DNA of 64,000 nucleotides from NCBI GenBank assembly GCA_029861535.1, contig JAOTZC010000001.1:124001-188000 (forward strand), written 5' to 3'. A program made the translations under genes and the position numbers. The notes below the pieces were generated by a model that saw only the letters and a program-made list of their open reading frames with translations, was not told where the DNA came from and ran no database searches. Of the stretch, positions 48,993 through 63,619 are shown piece after piece. The stretch's first letter is position 1, and every line of letters begins with the position of its first letter. Source of the DNA: Gammaproteobacteria bacterium (GTDB taxonomy: Bacteria > Pseudomonadota > Gammaproteobacteria > Steroidobacterales > Woeseiaceae).

Positions 48993-50141
48993 ATGAGTGA
49001 GCAGATCGGGGACACGCACACCTGCTTAAACTGCGGTGCGACCCTTGTGGGGCAGTACTGTGGTCAGTGCGGCCAACGCGCGGCGAGTCGGCTAATCAGT
49101 TTGTGGGAATTGCTGCGCGACGCGTTCGGCGATCTATTCGAATTGGACTCGCGCCTCTGGCGTACGCTGGTTCCGCTGCTGGTGCGTCCCGGGATCCTGA
49201 CGCGGGACTACCTCATCGGCCGACGCGCGCGTTACATGCCGCCGTTTCGCATGTATCTGGTCTTGAGTCTGGTCTTTTTCATCATCGCATTTTTCGATCC
49301 TCGACAGCAGCTCGCGATTCTCTATGAACCGGGCGATTCACCCGACGCGGAACTCGTGACAGCCGAGCGAGCGCCAATCAACGAAGAAACCCGTGAGATC
49401 CTGGAAGAGCTGGTCCGCGATGGCGTTCTCGATGAAGAGATATTGGGTCCCGACGGCCCGCTCGGGCCCGCAGCCGATGTGGAACCCGCAGCACCGACGC
49501 AAGGCGACGCCCAGGACCAAGCCGACGAAGTCGACGGCAACCAAACCGACAGCGACAATAGTGACAACCAAGCGGACGACGACGAATCGGGCTTGAATCT
49601 GACCATTGACGATGATGATCTCAATTGCACGGTAGGGGGAGCCGACTTCGACTTCGCACCGGAGTTTATTCAACGTCGCTTTTCCGAGGAGCGTCTCACG
49701 CAGGTTTGTAAACGCGTGATTGAGGTTGGCGCGGCCGGCGTATTCGCTGCCCTGCTTGACAACGTGCCTGCCGCGCTGATCATTTTGCTACCGTTGATGG
49801 CTTTCGTATTGAAGTTTCTGTACCCGTTGTCACGTCGTTACTACGTTGAGCACCTGTTGTTCTTTGTGCACTTCCATGCCTTCTTGTTCGTGCTGCTGAC
49901 GCTGCAGATTCTGTGGGCTAGATTGATCGCGCTCGTTGGGTTCCACGACGCTGTCAGTGTGCTGCCCATTGTCGCAACCTCGTTTTACATCCCGGTTTAC
50001 CTCTACAAATCGATGCGCCGCGTTTATGAACAGGGCCGCATACTCACGGTGCTGAAGTTTCTCACGCTATCGATCACGTATATGCTCGGGTTCACCCTAA
50101 TGATGTTCGGTGCGTTGCTTATCGCCGTATTCTCCGTCTAA
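48993..50141 (+). CDS. DUF3667-type membrane protein with N-terminal zinc ribbon
   Basis: TCLNCGATLVGQYCGQCGQRAASRLISLWELLRDAFGDLFELDSRLWRTL; several TM segments. Confidence 0.85.
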   Translation: MSEQIGDTHTCLNCGATLVGQYCGQCGQRAASRLISLWELLRDAFGDLFELDSRLWRTLVPLLVRPGILTRDYLIGRRARYMPPFRMYLVLSLVFFIIAFFDPRQQLAILYEPGDSPDAELVTAERAPINEETREILEELVRDGVLDEEILGPDGPLGPAADVEPAAPTQGDAQDQADEVDGNQTDSDNSDNQADDDESGLNLTIDDDDLNCTVGGADFDFAPEFIQRRFSEERLTQVCKRVIEVGAAGVFAALLDNVPAALIILLPLMAFVLKFLYPLSRRYYVEHLLFFVHFHAFLFVLLTLQILWARLIALVGFHDAVSVLPIVATSFYIPVYLYKSMRRVYEQGRILTVLKFLTLSITYMLGFTLMMFGALLIAVFSV

Positions 50142-50238
50142 GAGACAGCGTGTGCCGCGACACATAAACCACTATGATGAGCGCCTAGGAATTCGAACTG
50201 GCGAAATCTCCACTGCACAGCGAGGGGGAATAATATCA

Positions 50239-50778
50239 ATGTCGAGTCGCACCTTGAATATTAGTTTAAGCCGTTTTGTCCTCAGCAAATATCGAATCAG
50301 CGCTGCGCTCCTTAGCATCGCGCTACTGCTTTCTGCTTGCGGTCGCGATTCCACCGAGACCTCGAGCGATGAAGCACCGCCGAGCGCGGCGCGCGACGAT
50401 GCCGCGCCGATAGCAGCACTCCCTCGTACTGTGTCGCCGGCTGGTGCGAGCGTATTTTTCGTAGCGCCGGCCGACGGCGATACCGTGTCGAATCCTGTGA
50501 TGATCGAATTCGGCGTTGAGGGTATGACGATCGTCAAGGCCGGCGAGGACCAGCCTCAATCCGGTCACCATCACCTGCTTATCGATACTGCGTTGCCCGA
50601 TCTGTCGTTACCCATTCCAGCCGATGAAAACTATGTGCATTTTGGCGATGCCAGCTTATCGACTGAGCGAACGCTCGAGCCGGGCACGCATACCCTGCAG
50701 TTGCTGCTCGGGGATCATCTGCATATTCCGCACGATCCACCGGTGACGTCTGAGGTCATAACGATCATTGTCGAGTAA
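50239..50778 (+). CDS. DUF4399 domain-containing lipoprotein
   Basis: Lipobox LLSACG; VFFVAPADGDTVSNPVMIEFGVEGM...GHHHLLID. Confidence 0.85.
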   Translation: MSSRTLNISLSRFVLSKYRISAALLSIALLLSACGRDSTETSSDEAPPSAARDDAAPIAALPRTVSPAGASVFFVAPADGDTVSNPVMIEFGVEGMTIVKAGEDQPQSGHHHLLIDTALPDLSLPIPADENYVHFGDASLSTERTLEPGTHTLQLLLGDHLHIPHDPPVTSEVITIIVE

Positions 50779-50924: not shown

Positions 50925-52409
50925 ATGAATTATCCCGTACAGAAGAAAAAGATCGGAATCAGTGGCCTCGCCGCCTATGTGCCGCCGTACCGAGTCTGGC
51001 TCGAGGACTGGTGCGACTGGACCGGCAACCAATGGCCAAAGATCCGCGAGGTTGTCGGTCGCAGCTTTCGCGTGCGCGGTCCGGATCAAAGCGTCTACAC
51101 GATGGCGGCATCGTCTGTAATACGGCTGATTGACCAGTACGATATCGACCCGTCCAGGGTTAAGTTTTTGGGGCTTGGCACTGAATCGAGCACCGACAAC
51201 TCTGCCGGCGCGATTATTGTTAAAGGCATGGTGGACCACGCACTGGAGGCACGCGGCAAGCCGCCCATCGCACGTAGCTGCGAAGTACCTGAGTTCAAAC
51301 ACGCCTGTCTCGGTGGCGTCTATGGCATGAAAGGCGCGATTCGCCATCTGGCGCTCGATGGCGCCGGGAGTCAGGCCATCGTCGTTTGCGCCGATATCGC
51401 GGAATATGCTCGCGGTTCCAGCGGTGAGCCCACCCAAGGTGCCGGCGCCGTTGCGATGCTGCTCGAGGAGGACCCGAAGCTTGCGATCGTCGATCTCGTC
51501 GGCTCCGGCTCCGCGTCGGACTATCGAATCATGGATTTCCGCAAGCCGATGTCGCGATTCTGTGGCCAGGATCGTTCGCAGACCCATCAGGTTCAGGACT
51601 TCCCGGTATTCAATGGCAAGTATTCGACGACCTGTTATGTCGATGAAACCCTGCACGCGCTGAACGACATGTACGAAAAACGCGACCTGAACGCAATCGC
51701 TTACCTGCGTTCATTAAAGACGGTCTTTATGCATCGACCGTACCGGCGTATGCCCGAGACCGGCTGGGCTGTTTCGTATTTGTTTGCGTTGTCGAGCGGT
51801 GATGCTGAGGATCGCGCTGAACTTGCATCCTATTGCTATGACGCCGGCGTTGACCCGCACGATGTACGTGACGAAATGCTTGGTAAACCCGCGGTTGCAA
51901 CGCTGGCCGATCCCGAGCGCTTGAACTACGAGGCCTACCCACTAACGATGGCGGCGCTGCGTGCATTCCGAGCATCTCGTCGACACCGGCGTGAGATTCT
52001 CGACAAGCTTGCGATTGGTAGCGACACAATGCTCGACCTCGGCAACCTCTACACGGCAGCACTACCGGCCTGGCTGGCTGCCGGTTTCGAACAGGCACGT
52101 GACGAAGGCTCGCTGACCACCGGCGAGGAAGTGCTGACACTTGGCTACGGTAGCGGCGACGCGGCTGAAGTAATTCCGTTTTTTATCGCCGACAGTTGGC
52201 GCGAAGCGACAGCCAAGATTGGCTTCGCGGATGCAATGCGTCTGACGCTCGACCTCAATCGCGAGCAGTACGTGGCGCTGCATGACGGAAATCGCGTCAG
52301 CGGTCTCGGCTACATACCACGGAACGAATTCGTCATTGACCGCGTCGGCCGCAGCGACGAACGGCATTTCACAGACCTCGGTATCGAGTACTACCGCTAC
52401 ATCGCGTAG
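50925..52409 (+). CDS. mvaS: Hydroxymethylglutaryl-CoA synthase
   Basis: IGISGLAAYVPPYRV, LGLGTESSTDNSAG, FKHACLGGVYGMKGAI (catalytic Cys region), YARGSSGEPTQGAGAVAMLLE. Confidence 0.93.
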   Translation: MNYPVQKKKIGISGLAAYVPPYRVWLEDWCDWTGNQWPKIREVVGRSFRVRGPDQSVYTMAASSVIRLIDQYDIDPSRVKFLGLGTESSTDNSAGAIIVKGMVDHALEARGKPPIARSCEVPEFKHACLGGVYGMKGAIRHLALDGAGSQAIVVCADIAEYARGSSGEPTQGAGAVAMLLEEDPKLAIVDLVGSGSASDYRIMDFRKPMSRFCGQDRSQTHQVQDFPVFNGKYSTTCYVDETLHALNDMYEKRDLNAIAYLRSLKTVFMHRPYRRMPETGWAVSYLFALSSGDAEDRAELASYCYDAGVDPHDVRDEMLGKPAVATLADPERLNYEAYPLTMAALRAFRASRRHRREILDKLAIGSDTMLDLGNLYTAALPAWLAAGFEQARDEGSLTTGEEVLTLGYGSGDAAEVIPFFIADSWREATAKIGFADAMRLTLDLNREQYVALHDGNRVSGLGYIPRNEFVIDRVGRSDERHFTDLGIEYYRYIA

Positions 52410-52969
52410 CGCGACAATAAGTCTGCATGCTGCTCGCACAGCGTGCGCCATTCCATCCTAAACCACGGCGTAAATTGCTCTGGCCGTTCATCGAGTTCCG
52501 CATCGAGTTCTCTGCTCGACACGAAGCGAATGCGTTGAATCTCATGTTCATTCGGTTTGATGTCACCAAGCACCTTTCCTACGAAGACATGGCATAACTC
52601 GTTTTCTGATCCTGATTCGTCGAAGCGGGCGTGATAGCTGAACTTGTAGACATACTCGAGTTGCGCATTTGCATTGAGTTCGTCTCGAAGGCGGCGCTCC
52701 GTCGCCGCTTGCATATCTTCGCCGCGGCGCGGGTGACTGCAGCAGCTGTTCGACCAGTATTCTGGCCACAGCCGCTTGCTGCCGGCGCGTTGTTGCAACA
52801 ACATATTGCCATCATCGTTGAACAGAAAAACCGAAAAAGCACGATGAAGGACGCCATCGCCATTGTGACATTCGGCTTTCGACAAATGTCCGGTCTCGTT
52901 GTCATTCTCGTCGACAAGAATTAACTCCTCGACATCCGACGATACGATTCTGTGTGCGTTATTCAACAC
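52397..52969 (-). CDS. idi: Isopentenyl-diphosphate delta-isomerase type 1 (Nudix)
   Basis: EELILVDENDNETGHLSKAECHNGDGVLHRAFSVFLFNDDGNMLLQQRAGSKRLWPEYWSNSCCSHPRRGED. Confidence 0.96.
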   Translation of the reverse strand: MLNNAHRIVSSDVEELILVDENDNETGHLSKAECHNGDGVLHRAFSVFLFNDDGNMLLQQRAGSKRLWPEYWSNSCCSHPRRGEDMQAATERRLRDELNANAQLEYVYKFSYHARFDESGSENELCHVFVGKVLGDIKPNEHEIQRIRFVSSRELDAELDERPEQFTPWFRMEWRTLCEQHADLLSRYAM

Positions 52970-55175
52970 CTTGGTCCTCGTTGCCCTGCGCTGCTATGGT
53001 CATGAATCCCGCGGCTTCAAGCGCCGACGACACGACGGCTTCTCGGCCCGGGCACAGCGCGACAATGGATCCACCACCGCCCGCGCCCGTGAGCTTTGCA
53101 CCTAGCGCACCAGCCGCCCGGGCGATAGATACCATGTGCTCGAGCTCTGGCGTAGATACCTGAATCGCGTTTAGCAACCCGTGGCAAATGTTCATCAGCC
53201 CACCAAGCCGCTCGTAATCCGCCGCTGCCAGCGCGTCGGCGCCCGCAATAGTCAGCGCGTCAATCTGCTCAAACAGCGCATCGTATTGTTCTGTGGCCGC
53301 GTCGCGACGCGCACGAACCCCGGCCACCTGTTCAAGTGTGGATCCCGGACTATTGCTGCAAGCCACAACAACTGGCGGCGCTTCGAGCAATTCGATTGTT
53401 GTAATTTCAGGCGGCTCGTTACGACGATACAAGAATGGCGTAGCGAAGGTTGCTACCGTATTGTCCACGCCAGACGGCGTTCCATGTGCGAGTTTTTCGC
53501 ACTCAAACGCGATGCTGTTAACACGATCGTTGTCCAAATCAATATCGAACGCCTTACCGAGCGCGCGCGTGATCGCAACCGCGAGCGCCGCCGATGAGCC
53601 CAGACCCATTGCACGCGGCAAAGTCGTGGCAACACTCAGATTGAACGCACGATCAGCGACGCCAAGTTCGCGTGCGATTTGCAACACCGCGTCACCAATA
53701 TCGCTACCGGCTTCGATGCTCTTATCGACACCCCATGCTGGAATCGAAATAGTCGGTGAGTCACTCACCTTGGCGCTTGCGGTTACCGCGTTCTTGATCG
53801 GCATTGCGAGCGCATGCGCACCGTAAACGACAGCATGCTCGCCCAACAGGATTAGCTTCCCCGCAGCAGTGACACCGTTTGGCGTAATTTCGAGCGCACG
53901 CTTTCCGATGAGAATCTCACGTGCTTTCCAGTCTTTGATTTCGCCGCTTGCAACGAGTTCTGCGACCACGTCGTCGAATAATTTGTCCGGGACGCCGGCC
54001 CCCGCAGCAACGCTGCGGGCATGCAGACGCATGTGTCCTTGTTGAATGCCGCTAGTCGAGAGCGCACGGATCGCCGCAAAATTCTGCGCGAGACCAACCG
54101 CGGCCATCAATTCAGCCAGTTCGCGCGCCGACTCGACCCCACATATTCTCAAGCCAAGTGCCGCCGTGGCGTTAGCCTCGCGCGTGCCGCCGACGATGCC
54201 GACCTTCAACGGTATGCGAATCTCGCCTGCAAGATCACCGGTATCGCTCACCGACCAGCACGTCAGCGGCGAATACGCTCCGCCGACCGCCGCGTAAGCG
54301 TGTGCACCGGCCTCGATTGCACGCCAATCATTGCCAGTTGCAACTGCCAACGGATCAATGCCGTTCATAATGCCCTTGTTGTGCGTTGCCGCCCGGTACG
54401 GATCTGCGCACGCGATATCGTTCGCCAAGACGATGGCATCTCGAGCGCGCTTCGCCGCGTCTTCGTCCTCACCGAGATCTTTGAGCCCATAGTTAACTTT
54501 CGCGGTCACTAAAGAACGGTCTGCGAGGTTCGACAGGATTCGCATCGCGATGTTGCCGTTGCAAAGCTCCGCTAGCTGCGGCGCGATCGCTTCGCAAATC
54601 GTGTTGACCAGGTTCGCACCCATCGCGTTGCCGGTATCGACGAGCAAATGGACGACGAGTGAATTGCGACCATCTTCGAGTAACAGATTGCGAGACTCGA
54701 TATCACGGACCCCACCGCCACGACGCACGAGTCGCGGATGAACATCGTTAGCAGCGGCCAACAATGCTTGCTTCGCATTGTTTATCGCATCGATCGCCGC
54801 ATCGACATCGCTGATTCCAGTCAAATGTACCTGTCCAGCCAGCAGAGATTCGTCGCAGGCCGAATCGAATCCGCCCGCTGAACGCGCAAGCAGCGCAGAC
54901 GCGCTGAGCGCGGCGACGATTGAAGGTTCCTCGACGACCAACGGCACTAAGTAGTCGCGATCGTTGACACGAAAATTCGGTACGACGGCGAGCGGTAGGC
55001 CGAACGTCGCTATGACATTTTCGATAATCTTATCGCCAGCGGTCACAGGTAAAATCACTCGACCGTTCTTCAGAGCGTCGGCATCCGTCGACGACAACCA
55101 GCCGCGGCGCTCGAGCTCAGCAATACGTTCACCAACCGAAAGTCGATAGAAGCCCGAAATGCGAGAATCGCTCAC
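52959..55175 (-). CDS. Bifunctional class II HMG-CoA reductase-mevalonate kinase fusion
   Basis: aa 1-~430 HMGR with E83, K267 (HNKGIMNG), D283 (GNDWRAIEAGAHAYA), H381 (GHMRLHARSVA); aa ~433-738 GHMP mevalonate kinase (GKLILLGEHAVVYG, PRAMGLGSSAA, HGTPSGVDN, GALGAKLTGAGGGGSIVAL). Confidence 0.94.
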   Translation of the reverse strand: MSDSRISGFYRLSVGERIAELERRGWLSSTDADALKNGRVILPVTAGDKIIENVIATFGLPLAVVPNFRVNDRDYLVPLVVEEPSIVAALSASALLARSAGGFDSACDESLLAGQVHLTGISDVDAAIDAINNAKQALLAAANDVHPRLVRRGGGVRDIESRNLLLEDGRNSLVVHLLVDTGNAMGANLVNTICEAIAPQLAELCNGNIAMRILSNLADRSLVTAKVNYGLKDLGEDEDAAKRARDAIVLANDIACADPYRAATHNKGIMNGIDPLAVATGNDWRAIEAGAHAYAAVGGAYSPLTCWSVSDTGDLAGEIRIPLKVGIVGGTREANATAALGLRICGVESARELAELMAAVGLAQNFAAIRALSTSGIQQGHMRLHARSVAAGAGVPDKLFDDVVAELVASGEIKDWKAREILIGKRALEITPNGVTAAGKLILLGEHAVVYGAHALAMPIKNAVTASAKVSDSPTISIPAWGVDKSIEAGSDIGDAVLQIARELGVADRAFNLSVATTLPRAMGLGSSAALAVAITRALGKAFDIDLDNDRVNSIAFECEKLAHGTPSGVDNTVATFATPFLYRRNEPPEITTIELLEAPPVVVACSNSPGSTLEQVAGVRARRDAATEQYDALFEQIDALTIAGADALAAADYERLGGLMNICHGLLNAIQVSTPELEHMVSIARAAGALGAKLTGAGGGGSIVALCPGREAVVSSALEAAGFMTIAAQGNEDQGVE

Positions 55176-56119
55176 GCTCCGGCCCCATTCAGAACAACGC
55201 CGATATCGTCGATTGTCATGTCGAGCTGCCGAAAGCCAAAATCCCCGACCTTATGTGCGAATGCCTTGACAGCCTGTTTTTCTGTTCCGAGTACGATACC
55301 GATATCGCCGCCACCCGCACCACAAGGCTTGTAGACGATATTTGCCGACATTTTCTTCTCTGCAAGTGCATCATGACCAGCATCGAATATGCCGAGACCA
55401 TGGTCAATATCGAATTGCCGTAGCACCGGCACATAGTCACGATATTCGCCGACAATCGCAGCGGCATCGCCCGAGATCCAGGCTTCTGCGACGTTTGCCG
55501 CAACTTCGCTCAGCGCGCCGTTGCTGCCGCGCGTTTTTGAATCCGGCAGGCGACGAAGTTTCTCAGACGTGTTCGCGGGCACACCGCTCCACAACAACTG
55601 GTAATGGAGTCCGTCTGGCCATGCGAGCGACCGCGGCGTTTCGCCGACACAATACTCGACGAGCCCGCCGACGATACTTGTCGCAACATCGACGCCACTA
55701 CCGACACCTTGCTGAAACGCATGATGTGCTTTTTGAGAGCACCGAAATAGTTCAAGCCCGCTGATTTCGCCCCTTGCGCTCGCCGCCAATGCGCATACCA
55801 ATCCGACCGTGAGCGCTGCACTTGAGCCGATGCCAAATTTGATACCGGACGTCGAGTCCGCAAATGCACGGGTATCGAGGAGCACCGTGCCACGCCAACG
55901 ATGGATCGCAAGTGCGTCGCATGCGCACTCGAATATCCGCGTATCCTTATCGCCGGCCAATCCAATGGATTGGATGGACAAGTCGTCAGCCGCGGCAAGC
56001 GTAATGACCGCACGACGATTGACCGCCATTGACACAGCGGGCGCTCCATCAAGCACGGCGTATTCGCCCGATAGGATGACCTTACCTGGCGCGCTGCTCT
56101 TGATTGAATTCATACGCAA
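55172..56119 (-). CDS. Phosphomevalonate kinase (GHMP family)
   Basis: SSAPGKVILSGEYAVLDGAPAVSMAVNRRA, KFGIGSSAALTVGLV, GVGSGVDVATSIVGGLVEY, KPCGAGGGDIGIVLG. Confidence 0.9.
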   Translation of the reverse strand: MRMNSIKSSAPGKVILSGEYAVLDGAPAVSMAVNRRAVITLAAADDLSIQSIGLAGDKDTRIFECACDALAIHRWRGTVLLDTRAFADSTSGIKFGIGSSAALTVGLVCALAASARGEISGLELFRCSQKAHHAFQQGVGSGVDVATSIVGGLVEYCVGETPRSLAWPDGLHYQLLWSGVPANTSEKLRRLPDSKTRGSNGALSEVAANVAEAWISGDAAAIVGEYRDYVPVLRQFDIDHGLGIFDAGHDALAEKKMSANIVYKPCGAGGGDIGIVLGTEKQAVKAFAHKVGDFGFRQLDMTIDDIGVVLNGAGA

Positions 56120-57072
56120 CCAGTCAACTTAGCGCCTGCCCCAAGCTCACTTACGATGACGCGGCCAACGCCGCTTGTAGATTGCAGCGCATCGCAAACG
56201 CGAGACTCGTCGTGTGCCAGACAGATTGCTTTGACTTGCGGCCCCGCATCGATTGTAAAAAACACTCCGACGCCTTGCGTACGCAATTCGCGTACCGTTT
56301 GCAGACATTCCAAGGTTGCGGCGTTCCAGTATACGATCGGCGGCCGAGATGCCCACATGACCGAATGCATCTTTAGACAATTGTGCTCGGCGATCGCGGC
56401 GAGCTTGCCAAAATCCCGTTCCCGTATCGCTGCTCGCGCGACGTCGAGATCGTGCGTCTGGTCATCGACCCAACGGCCGTAGAACGGCGACGTCTTGCGA
56501 CTGATTTCCATTGCCTCCCCAGAACTTACCGGCTTCGGTCCTGCGGAAGTTACTGCGATAACGATCCTGAGCGGCCAGTCGCTGGAATCGAGCAATGTTT
56601 CGACCGCAACGCTATCGCCATTGTTTTCAAGTTCTGCGAAACCACCATAAAGAGATCGCGCAGCCGAACCTGATTCCAGGCCGGCAAGGCTCGCAAGCTC
56701 CGCCGTCGATCGATGTTGTCCCGCTGCAGCCGAGGCCGCAACCACTAGAGCCGCGAAAGCTGATGCCGACGACGCCAGCCCAGCGGCCACCGGAAAATTG
56801 CAATGACTGTCCACGCGCGCAGGATCACGACCCTCGCCGGCGACTGCGCTTAAGCAGCGACTGATTCGCGGCAACATCTGCTGGTCAATTTCACCATTGA
56901 CAGTGAGTACGTCGTCCTTGAGTTTGGAATCGAACTTGACGTTCATCTCCGTGTAAAGGTCCGCAAGCGTAATCGATATGGAGCCAACCGCCGGCAAGTT
57001 CAGTGTCCTGTCGCGTTTTCCCCAATATTTGATCAAGGCGATATTAGGTTGTGCTCTCGCCGTTGCCTGCAT
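56110..57072 (-). CDS. mvaD: Diphosphomevalonate decarboxylase
   Basis: QPNIALIKYWGKRDRTLNLPAVGSISITL, NFPVAAGLASSASAFAALV, FFTIDAGPQVKAICL. Confidence 0.95.
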   Translation of the reverse strand: MQATARAQPNIALIKYWGKRDRTLNLPAVGSISITLADLYTEMNVKFDSKLKDDVLTVNGEIDQQMLPRISRCLSAVAGEGRDPARVDSHCNFPVAAGLASSASAFAALVVAASAAAGQHRSTAELASLAGLESGSAARSLYGGFAELENNGDSVAVETLLDSSDWPLRIVIAVTSAGPKPVSSGEAMEISRKTSPFYGRWVDDQTHDLDVARAAIRERDFGKLAAIAEHNCLKMHSVMWASRPPIVYWNAATLECLQTVRELRTQGVGVFFTIDAGPQVKAICLAHDESRVCDALQSTSGVGRVIVSELGAGAKLTGCV

Positions 57073-57148
57073 GTTCTATCCCGGGGGCCAAGCGTTCAAA
57101 AGGACGCGAATTATAGCCCAGTCGGGTGCGAGCACTGCCGGTCAAATC

Positions 57149-58078
57149 GTGTACGCTATTGCCCCCGATCGAGCTCAAGAGACCGCCTTGCCCGCTAATT
57201 TCAAAGACCGCCTGGACTATTATCTGGACCGAGTGACGTGCAAGCTCGATGCATGTTTGCCAAGCGCTAACGAAAATCCGAAACGCTTGCACGAGGCAAT
57301 GCGATACGCCGTTTTCAATGGTGGCAAACGCATTCGACCGATGTTGGTCTATGCCGCCGGTGAGTGTGTCGGCGTCGCCGAGGAACTCCTCGATGCGCCG
57401 GCTGCGGCCATCGAGCTGATCCACGCATTTTCGTTGGTCCACGACGACCTGCCGTCGATGGATGACGATGATCTACGGCGAGGCAAACCGACGCTGCATG
57501 TAGCGTACGATGAAGCGACTGCGATCCTCGCGGCCGACGCGCTGCAACCGTTGGCGTTTTCTGTGTTGGCGGACATAGACGATGTTACTGCCGACGTCCG
57601 TACCAGCCTGGTCCGGCTCGTTGCCGACGCCTGCGGATCGATCGGCATGACTGGTGGCCAGTCGATCGATCTCGCTGCCGAAGGACAAACGCTCAGCGCC
57701 GACGAACTAGAACATATGTATGTACTGAAGACCGGCGCGCTGATTCACGCATCGGTGATGTCCGCATGCCTGCTAAAGCCTGACACACCGGATCCACAAC
57801 AACGCGCGCTCGACAGGTTTTCTCGCGCCGTCGGCATCGCGTTTCAGATTCGCGATGACCTGCTCGACATCGAAGGTGAAACCATTATTATCGGCAAACC
57901 CGCCGGTTCAGATCTTGGGCTCAGGAAAGCAACCTATCCCACGCTTCTCGGGACCGAAGCATCGCTGAAGCGTTGCGACGAATTGATTGCCGACGCTTTT
58001 CAATACCTCGAAGTCGTCGGCGATGCTGCCGAACCACTTCGCTGGCTCGCGCGTTACATAGTCCAGCGAAACAACTGA
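57149..58078 (+). CDS. ispA: Polyprenyl (farnesyl/geranylgeranyl) diphosphate synthase; start GTG 57149 or TTG 57188
   Basis: GGKRIRPMLVYAAGE, LIHAFSLVHDDLPSMDDDDLRRGKPTLH (first Asp-rich motif), FQIRDDLLDIEG (second). Confidence 0.93.
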   Translation: MYAIAPDRAQETALPANFKDRLDYYLDRVTCKLDACLPSANENPKRLHEAMRYAVFNGGKRIRPMLVYAAGECVGVAEELLDAPAAAIELIHAFSLVHDDLPSMDDDDLRRGKPTLHVAYDEATAILAADALQPLAFSVLADIDDVTADVRTSLVRLVADACGSIGMTGGQSIDLAAEGQTLSADELEHMYVLKTGALIHASVMSACLLKPDTPDPQQRALDRFSRAVGIAFQIRDDLLDIEGETIIIGKPAGSDLGLRKATYPTLLGTEASLKRCDELIADAFQYLEVVGDAAEPLRWLARYIVQRNN

Positions 58079-61786: not shown

Positions 61787-63619
61787 TTGAGTAGTCCTGT
61801 TACTACGCACCTGAACGGCGACAGTTTTTCCCAAGCGTTCATTTCCGGTATCCATCGGGTCATCGACGAACAGGATTTTCTCAATCGGATCAACGTATTT
61901 CCGGTTGCGGACGGCGACACCGGCACGAATCTCAGCCTGTCGCTTGGCGCAACCCTGCCGTTATTGACTCGCACTGACGATCAACATCTGGGAACACTGC
62001 TTGCCGCCGTTGCGGACGCCTTACTCGACAGTTCACGGGGCAATTCGGGAGCGATCGTCGCGCAGTTTTTTCAGGGTGTGAGCGACTCAGCGGGTGAGAT
62101 AAGTCGATTCACGACATACACATTCAGCAAGGCGGTTACACTCGGCAGTGAGTATGCGCACGATGCATTATCCGAACCGCGTGAGGGCACGATCCTGTCT
62201 GTCATTTCCGCATTTGCAGACAGCGTTAAACGCCAATCGATTGAGTGCAATGAAGAAGATTTTAGAGTTGTCATCGAGCGAGCGGTCGAACGTGTCGAAA
62301 AAGCTCTCGCCGAAACACCGAATCAACTTGATGTACTGAGGAAGGCCGGCGTCGTGGACGCTGGCGCCAAGGGATTTGCGACGATGGTCTCCGGCATGGC
62401 CGAATATATTCGGCATGGACGCGTCGCTCCGAAGCCAGATTTATCAGCTTTGTTTAGCGAAGAACTATCATTCGCGACATCAGCCGAAGGCGCAGACTCG
62501 TCGTTTCGCTTCTGCACCGAATGCATTGTGACGGGCGCCGATATCGATCGACGAAAAATGCGTGAGTCGCTTGATCAGATCGGTGATTCTCTTGTGCTTG
62601 CCGGCACGAAGCGTAAAGCTAAAATCCATATCCACGTTGATGAACCGGAGCAAGTTTTCGAGCTTGCACGCCGTTATGGCGACCTCAGCGCCGAAAAAGC
62701 CGACGACATACATAGACAGCACGTCAGTAGTCATAACGACGCGCGCCGCTTTGCCGTTATTACCGATTCGGCCGCAGATATTCCGGACGATGACATGGAG
62801 CGCCTCGACATTCATATGGTGCCATTGCGGATTCAGTTCGGTGAACACGGCTATCTCGACAAGGTCAGTATCTCAACTGAGGAGTTTTTTCATGAGCTAG
62901 CGACCAACCCGTATCATCCGACAACATCACAGCCCGCGCCGGGCGACTTTCGTCGTCAGTTTCAGTTTCTGGCGAGCCACTTTTCAGACGTAATTTCGAT
63001 TAACGTGACAGCACGTGTCAGTGGCACATTTCACGCTGCTACCGCGGCGGCGGCGCGAGTAAATGCGCCTGGAATAATTCACGTTGTTGACTCACATAAT
63101 GCCTCGCTTGGACAGGGACTGCTGGCGATATTCGCCGCCGAATGCTCGAAGGCCGGTTTGAGTGCCGACAATACTCTGGCGAAGCTCGAGCAGATCACGG
63201 CGAAAACCCGCGCTTTCGCGATCGTCAGCGACTTACGCTACGCGGTCAAAGGTGGCCGCATCCCTGGTTACATAAAAACGATCGCTGACTTGTTGCGTTT
63301 GACGCCTGTCATCCGCACGACCTCGGATGGCCGTATTGGAACCGCCGGATTTCTACTCGGCCGCCGCAAGCGGCTACAGAAATTCGCGCGTTATATTGCA
63401 ACGCGTGTTAGCGACGACGGCCCGCTGACGGTACTGATAGGTCATGCGATTTGCCCGCAGGACGCGACTTTATTGGAGCACTTGCTACGCGACGAACTGA
63501 ACGATATTCATCGGCTGTCGATCACCGAACTCGGGACTGCGTTCGGCGTCCATGGCGGACCCGCTACACTGGTCGTCGCGACGCAACCGTCGCGCGAGCT
63601 ACCCGAAAATGTGGTTTAG
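61787..63619 (+). CDS. Fused DAK2 (FakA-like)-DegV (FakB-like) protein, TTG start
   Basis: DhaL/DAK2 domain (NRINVFPVADGDTGTNLSLSLGATLPLL, DSSRGNSGAIVAQFFQG), FakA-like middle domain, C-terminal DegV (FAVITDSAADIPDDDMERLDIHMVPLRI). Confidence 0.92.
   Translation: MSSPVTTHLNGDSFSQAFISGIHRVIDEQDFLNRINVFPVADGDTGTNLSLSLGATLPLLTRTDDQHLGTLLAAVADALLDSSRGNSGAIVAQFFQGVSDSAGEISRFTTYTFSKAVTLGSEYAHDALSEPREGTILSVISAFADSVKRQSIECNEEDFRVVIERAVERVEKALAETPNQLDVLRKAGVVDAGAKGFATMVSGMAEYIRHGRVAPKPDLSALFSEELSFATSAEGADSSFRFCTECIVTGADIDRRKMRESLDQIGDSLVLAGTKRKAKIHIHVDEPEQVFELARRYGDLSAEKADDIHRQHVSSHNDARRFAVITDSAADIPDDDMERLDIHMVPLRIQFGEHGYLDKVSISTEEFFHELATNPYHPTTSQPAPGDFRRQFQFLASHFSDVISINVTARVSGTFHAATAAAARVNAPGIIHVVDSHNASLGQGLLAIFAAECSKAGLSADNTLAKLEQITAKTRAFAIVSDLRYAVKGGRIPGYIKTIADLLRLTPVIRTTSDGRIGTAGFLLGRRKRLQKFARYIATRVSDDGPLTVLIGHAICPQDATLLEHLLRDELNDIHRLSITELGTAFGVHGGPATLVVATQPSRELPENVV

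Follow-up and report, generated by a model that had tools for sequence, protein, structure and literature searches.

A compact mevalonate gene cluster with a fused HMG-CoA reductase and mevalonate kinase appears to replace the MEP pathway in Woeseiaceae

A complete mevalonate (MVA) gene cluster, in which HMG-CoA reductase (HMGR) and mevalonate kinase (MvK) are joined in one protein, was found in a 64-kb stretch of DNA (hereafter the window) from a member of the Woeseiaceae, a family of Gammaproteobacteria in the order Woeseiales. Taking the evidence together, we consider it highly probable (about 0.9) that the host obtains IPP and DMAPP through this module alone, and that the module arose once, replaced the MEP pathway in Woeseiaceae as well as in several families related to it, and moved between phyla. 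Most gammaproteobacteria use the MEP route. Bacterial MVA pathways and gammaproteobacterial exceptions are already known. A survey of isoprenoid pathways in bacteria, published in 2026, puts its emphasis on diversity within Bacillota and Actinomycetota and on a subset of Bacteroidota with MVA (PMC13001223). In surface sediment of the seafloor, Woeseiales account for a mean of ~5% of the cells that can be detected, and the genome study of the order makes no mention of isoprenoids (PMC7082342). In the open-access literature, no published description of an HMGR-MvK fusion or of MVA in Woeseiales was found.

The layout of the locus is presented in Table 1. The six open reading frames of the original prediction lie where they had been placed, and family profiles matched their enzyme names. 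On the minus strand the gene order is MvaD > PMK > HMGR:MvK > Idi-1, with overlaps of 4, 4, and 11 bp. Start/stop overlaps had been predicted at every junction of this operon, and all are real; the PMK start, however, had been set at TTG 56119 and is probably ATG 56113, where it shares an ATGA with the stop of MvaD. Direct reading of the junctions gave a GTGA overlap at 55172-55175 between PMK and HMGR, with the HMGR start at GTG 55175, and the 11-bp overlap between Idi and HMGR:MvK. The convergent HMG-CoA synthase (HMGS) overlaps the Idi stop by 13 bp, as predicted. The prenyl diphosphate synthase is indeed divergent and is an FPP synthase, but the reading frame proposed for it was over-extended: it opens at 56978, while homology begins near 57188, where an in-frame TTG with AAGAG upstream is probably the start, leaving no overlap with MvaD.

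Table 1. Genes and intergenic region of the mevalonate locus, in positions of the 64-kb window
Feature	Position	Strand	Remarks
mvaS, HMG-CoA synthase	50925..52409	+	divergent ~495-aa clade; TIGR01835 E=1.7e-46
idi, isopentenyl-diphosphate isomerase type 1	52397..52969	-	GTG start; NF002995 / TIGR02150 above cut-off
HMGR:MvK, 738 aa	52959..55175	-	GTG start; TIGR00532 and TIGR00549 in a single ORF, each above cut-off
PMK, divergent	55172..56113	-	TIGR01220 E=1e-26; 4-bp overlaps at both ends
mvaD, diphosphomevalonate decarboxylase	56110..57072	-	first gene of the operon; TIGR01240 259 bits, cut-off 171
FPP synthase (ispA-like), divergent member	57188..58078	+	NF045485 above cut-off; start by inspection
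mvaD / FPP synthase intergenic region	57073..57187	.	~115 bp, between divergent genes

The four minus-strand genes are probably expressed as one translationally coupled transcript, a reading that draws on their overlaps and on their conserved order. The order MvaD-PMK-HMGR:MvK-Idi is kept widely and across phyla, which excludes chance clustering, and the positions of HMGS and FPP synthase vary outside Woeseiaceae. The region between mvaD and the FPP synthase gene is a likely promoter region; no strong sigma-70 match was found within it, and promoter and terminator scans gave no signal clearly beyond chance. Elsewhere in the window, DUF3667 and DUF4399 proteins are encoded directly upstream of HMGS (48993-50141 and 50110-50778), and at 61787-63619 a DAK2-FakA-DegV protein joins fatty-acid-kinase-like A and B parts in a single ORF.

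As judged from profiles and motifs, the classical (diphosphomevalonate) core set of HMGS, HMGR, MvK, PMK, MvaD, and Idi is all encoded. Profile searches placed the HMGR part (TIGR00532, 370 bits, cut-off 260), the MvK part (TIGR00549, 237 bits, cut-off 163), Idi-1 (TIGR02150, 160 bits, cut-off 106), and FPP synthase (NF045485, 329 bits, cut-off 275) above their curated thresholds. MvaD likewise matches diphosphomevalonate decarboxylases in the PDB with E down to 1.6e-64, and its type is diphosphomevalonate rather than phosphomevalonate decarboxylase, the latter model scoring 146 against 475 bits (NF040704). Two members are more divergent. PMK reaches 94 bits against a TIGR01220 cut-off of 166, and is best described as a predicted PMK-like GHMP kinase outside that Gram-positive-type equivalog; it matches 3k17 / 1k47 in the PDB, and the motifs GxGSSA and KPCGAGGGD are conserved in 22 homologues. 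HMGS scores 159 bits against 360 for the prokaryotic model TIGR01835 (E=2e-46), and lies outside that family, yet its modelled fold is the same, making it a putative divergent member of the superfamily. Its best PDB match is 5hwo, Myxococcus MvaS, to which the AF2 model (pLDDT 82) aligns in Foldseek with E 3e-28 at 25% identity, and the putative catalytic triad E87, C128, and H270 is invariant in 15 homologues. The original prediction had named acetoacetyl-CoA thiolase as the one step for which the window holds no gene; a candidate of 404 aa lies on a different contig of the same genome (G000:C32; TIGR01930, 403 bits, above cut-off). The profile matches thus bear out the prediction that this gammaproteobacterium has a complete MVA cluster, with the thiolase elsewhere in the genome.

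On these assignments, the thiolase and the convergent HMGS would supply HMG-CoA. The fused HMGR:MvK would then act as one bifunctional protein, converting HMG-CoA to mevalonate in a step predicted to be NADPH-dependent and mevalonate to 5-phosphomevalonate. PMK and MvaD would carry this on to IPP, Idi-1 would form DMAPP, and the FPP synthase, transcribed divergently, would yield FPP. It should be noted that, by virtue of the fusion, the enzyme forming mevalonate would also be the one that phosphorylates it; channelling of mevalonate between the two sites is hypothetical.

Within the 738 aa of the fused protein, class II HMGR occupies residues ~1-426 and mevalonate kinase ~434-731. In a 14-protein alignment E83, K267, D283, and H381 are invariant; these are the catalytic residues, familiar from Pseudomonas mevalonii HMGR, and the numbering coincides. 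The direction of the reductase reaction bears on a different role for the operon, in which a P. mevalonii-type HMGR oxidises mevalonate and MEP still supplies isoprenoids. The name of the matched HMGR model contains "degradative", and the NAD-dependent P. mevalonii enzyme is among the nearest relatives in the PDB. In such an accessory or degradative operon, however, the linked PMK, MvaD, Idi, and FPP synthase would be needless, and congeners of the host lack ispG, ispH, and dxr. The cofactor helix also speaks against it: H146...R152 is invariant in the alignment, at the place of D146...L152 in P. mevalonii HMGR, and the substitution of H/R for D/L leads us to infer a reductive, biosynthetic role. 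The motif (H/Y)xSxxxR has been described for the cofactor helix of NADPH-type HMGR (PMC13370337), of which the H and the R are present here, position 3 being R and not S; this suggests NADPH as cofactor. With the linked genes and the helix both against it, the degradative reading was rejected as largely refuted, and we regard it as very improbable.

The reality of the fusion was considered next to its meaning. Most of the sequences come from metagenome-assembled genomes (MAGs), and a stop codon lost through an assembly or annotation error could join two genes. The fusion nevertheless occurs in dozens of independent genomes at ~41-69% domain identity, among them records of named Cryobacterium strains and genomes of the same family that consist of a single contig, and has one origin on the HMGR tree, so that an artefact is the most improbable of the alternatives weighed here. 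A subtler possibility is that the domains work apart, through processing or internal initiation, and that the fusion is functionally meaningless. In the AF2 model the two domains fold well and apart from each other, one resembling HMGR structures and the other MvK structures; confidence is low at residues 429-432 between them, domain orientation is uncertain (pTM 0.54), and linker length varies between homologues. Against this, the fusion is kept over large divergence and across phyla, and no unfused member lies within the fused clade among the best 80 matches to the fused-protein profile. We hold independent function of the domains to be improbable, though to a much lesser degree than an artefact.

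That MVA might stand in for MEP was raised in the original prediction, and genome-wide searches speak for it. Profile searches for dxr (PF02670), ispH (PF02401), and ispG (PF04551) found none of them in the host genome, a weak piece of evidence by itself at 76% completeness, and none in 24/24 genomes of the same genus, several of which are 97-100% complete. The searches covered these three genes; with ispG and ispH absent, DXS, IspD/E/F, or a type II DXR could not yield a working MEP pathway. In a set of 40 genomes, the 7 without fused HMGR:MvK are exactly the 7 with ispG and ispH, and six of these also carry dxr, the exception being G030 (82% complete). Across 296 genomes of the order, as grouped in the genome set used, 172 score above cut-off for mvaD, 109 for dxr, and 107 for ispH; MVA and MEP occupy different families. 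Only family f4 is mixed, and it is split by genus: G027 (genus g4) has dxr, ispG, and ispH, and three g28 genomes have the fused gene, a contrast in which the MEP side is one genome and the clusters end at contig ends in two of the three g28 genomes. Two rpoB matches in G056 (C4, C131) suggest some contamination of that MAG; contamination as the source of the f4 mvaD match was rejected because the fused cluster also occurs in two sister genomes. MVA therefore appears to replace MEP in the host, and this is no peculiarity of one genome: in Woeseiaceae, and in several families related to it, MVA is the rule.

The number and direction of the switches were analysed on an rpoB tree of the 40 genomes. 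The distribution of MVA and MEP requires 4 changes on the best tree, but a topology with all MVA genomes in one clade is not rejected by the test either (p-AU 0.495). On that tree the MVA families are basal and the MEP families lie inside, as would be expected if the order had started from MVA and its MEP families had regained MEP genes, and not the reverse. However, deep support is weak, the long E. coli branch joins near the long f12 branch, and the general prevalence of MEP in the class runs counter to such a history. Ancestral MVA is therefore considered unlikely, and replacement of MEP by the module is preferred.

The trees of the individual genes are informative as to how the module spread. 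The relatives of the window carry Woeseiaceae labels, and in the HMGR, MvaD, and HMGS trees it falls inside a Woeseiaceae group. The cluster behaves as one coherent Woeseiaceae block, in a check of gene origin that had been proposed with the original prediction. Almost every MVA genome sampled from the order has the fusion, as do further families of the class sample. Among the best 80 matches to the fused-protein profile, a selection that could miss nested unfused members, the named carriers are many gammaproteobacterial MAGs, 4 Calditrichota, 3 Acidobacteriota (of which one is cut off by the end of its contig), 1 Planctomycetota MAG, 4 Cryobacterium genomes, and 1 Nakamurella-labelled MAG; MAG taxon labels may be wrong. 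On the HMGR tree the fusion label changes once, the fused clade has an SH-aLRT of 100, and its sister is the unfused Myxococcota; on this tree a single origin is indicated. A quick MvaD tree gave 2 changes, not 1. Cryobacterium and Salinisphaera group together with support of 99 (HMGR) and 100 (HMGS), a placement hard to explain other than by transfer of the module between phyla. A bolder reading is possible, but we hold it only tentatively and think it somewhat doubtful: that the fused operon is a mobile pathway-replacement module, which ousted MEP on more than one occasion within Gammaproteobacteria and also reached Actinomycetota, Calditrichota, and Acidobacteriota, and that fusion is proceeding stepwise along the operon (HMGR-MvK, then PMK-HMGR-MvK or HMGR-MvK-Idi) towards a natural multienzyme coupling mevalonate formation to phosphorylation.

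Larger fusions were observed in relatives. In family f8, two closely related species carry PMK-HMGR-MvK as one reading frame (L189:8561-12799 (-) and L219:7665-11063 (+)), a possible trifunctional enzyme; a GTG lies in frame where HMGR begins, so that internal initiation is possible there. In a Woeseiaceae genus (G108), HMGR-MvK-Idi occupies one frame (L210:8217-11210 (+)), in a single MAG and on a long HMGR branch. A MvaD-Idi match in one frame (L204:3365-4963 (-)) in the unfused-type gammaproteobacterium G325 suggests fusion in a different MVA lineage.

If the preferred reading of MEP replacement is true, one of the commonest gammaproteobacterial groups of sediment depends on mevalonate, and insensitivity to MEP inhibitors would be expected. 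An order whose families, though related, use opposite pathways, as do genera within one of them, would be a good system for studying the swap of an essential pathway. Furthermore, the natural HMGR-MvK, PMK-HMGR-MvK, and HMGR-MvK-Idi proteins would be ready parts for isoprenoid engineering and for a direct test of channelling.

In comparison with the classical bacterial MVA systems of Staphylococcus, Streptococcus, Enterococcus, and Borrelia, the window shows the same steps, enzyme families, and gene clustering, but HMGR and MvK are one protein here, PMK and HMGS are divergent, and the host is a gammaproteobacterium. Enterococcus MvaE is a bifunctional thiolase-HMGR enzyme. It resembles the window gene as a class II HMGR naturally fused to a pathway enzyme, and differs in that the partner is the upstream thiolase rather than the downstream mevalonate kinase. 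In the HMGR-MvK-MvaD clusters of Myxococcota and Bacillota, MvK follows directly after HMGR, as in the fused gene, but the two are separate ORFs and the gene order differs from that of the window. The unfused gammaproteobacterial MVA sets (L199-L208), presumably including those of Legionella and Coxiella, are likewise exceptions in their class. Legionella are reported to lack PMK and, mostly, HMGS (PMC13001223), and so differ from the window with its full set. Among the unfused clusters, L205 has weak PMK- and HMGS-like matches and L206 a weak PMK-like match; divergent families of this kind may explain the absences reported in Legionella. The original prediction had pointed to Coxiella- and Legionella-type lineages as known MVA exceptions, and the window is a gammaproteobacterial exception as well. 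The type is different: in the unfused sets, whose membership of Legionellales is assumed, HMGR and MvK are separate, the gene order is another, and identities are low, and the window belongs to a separate lineage of fused HMGR:MvK.
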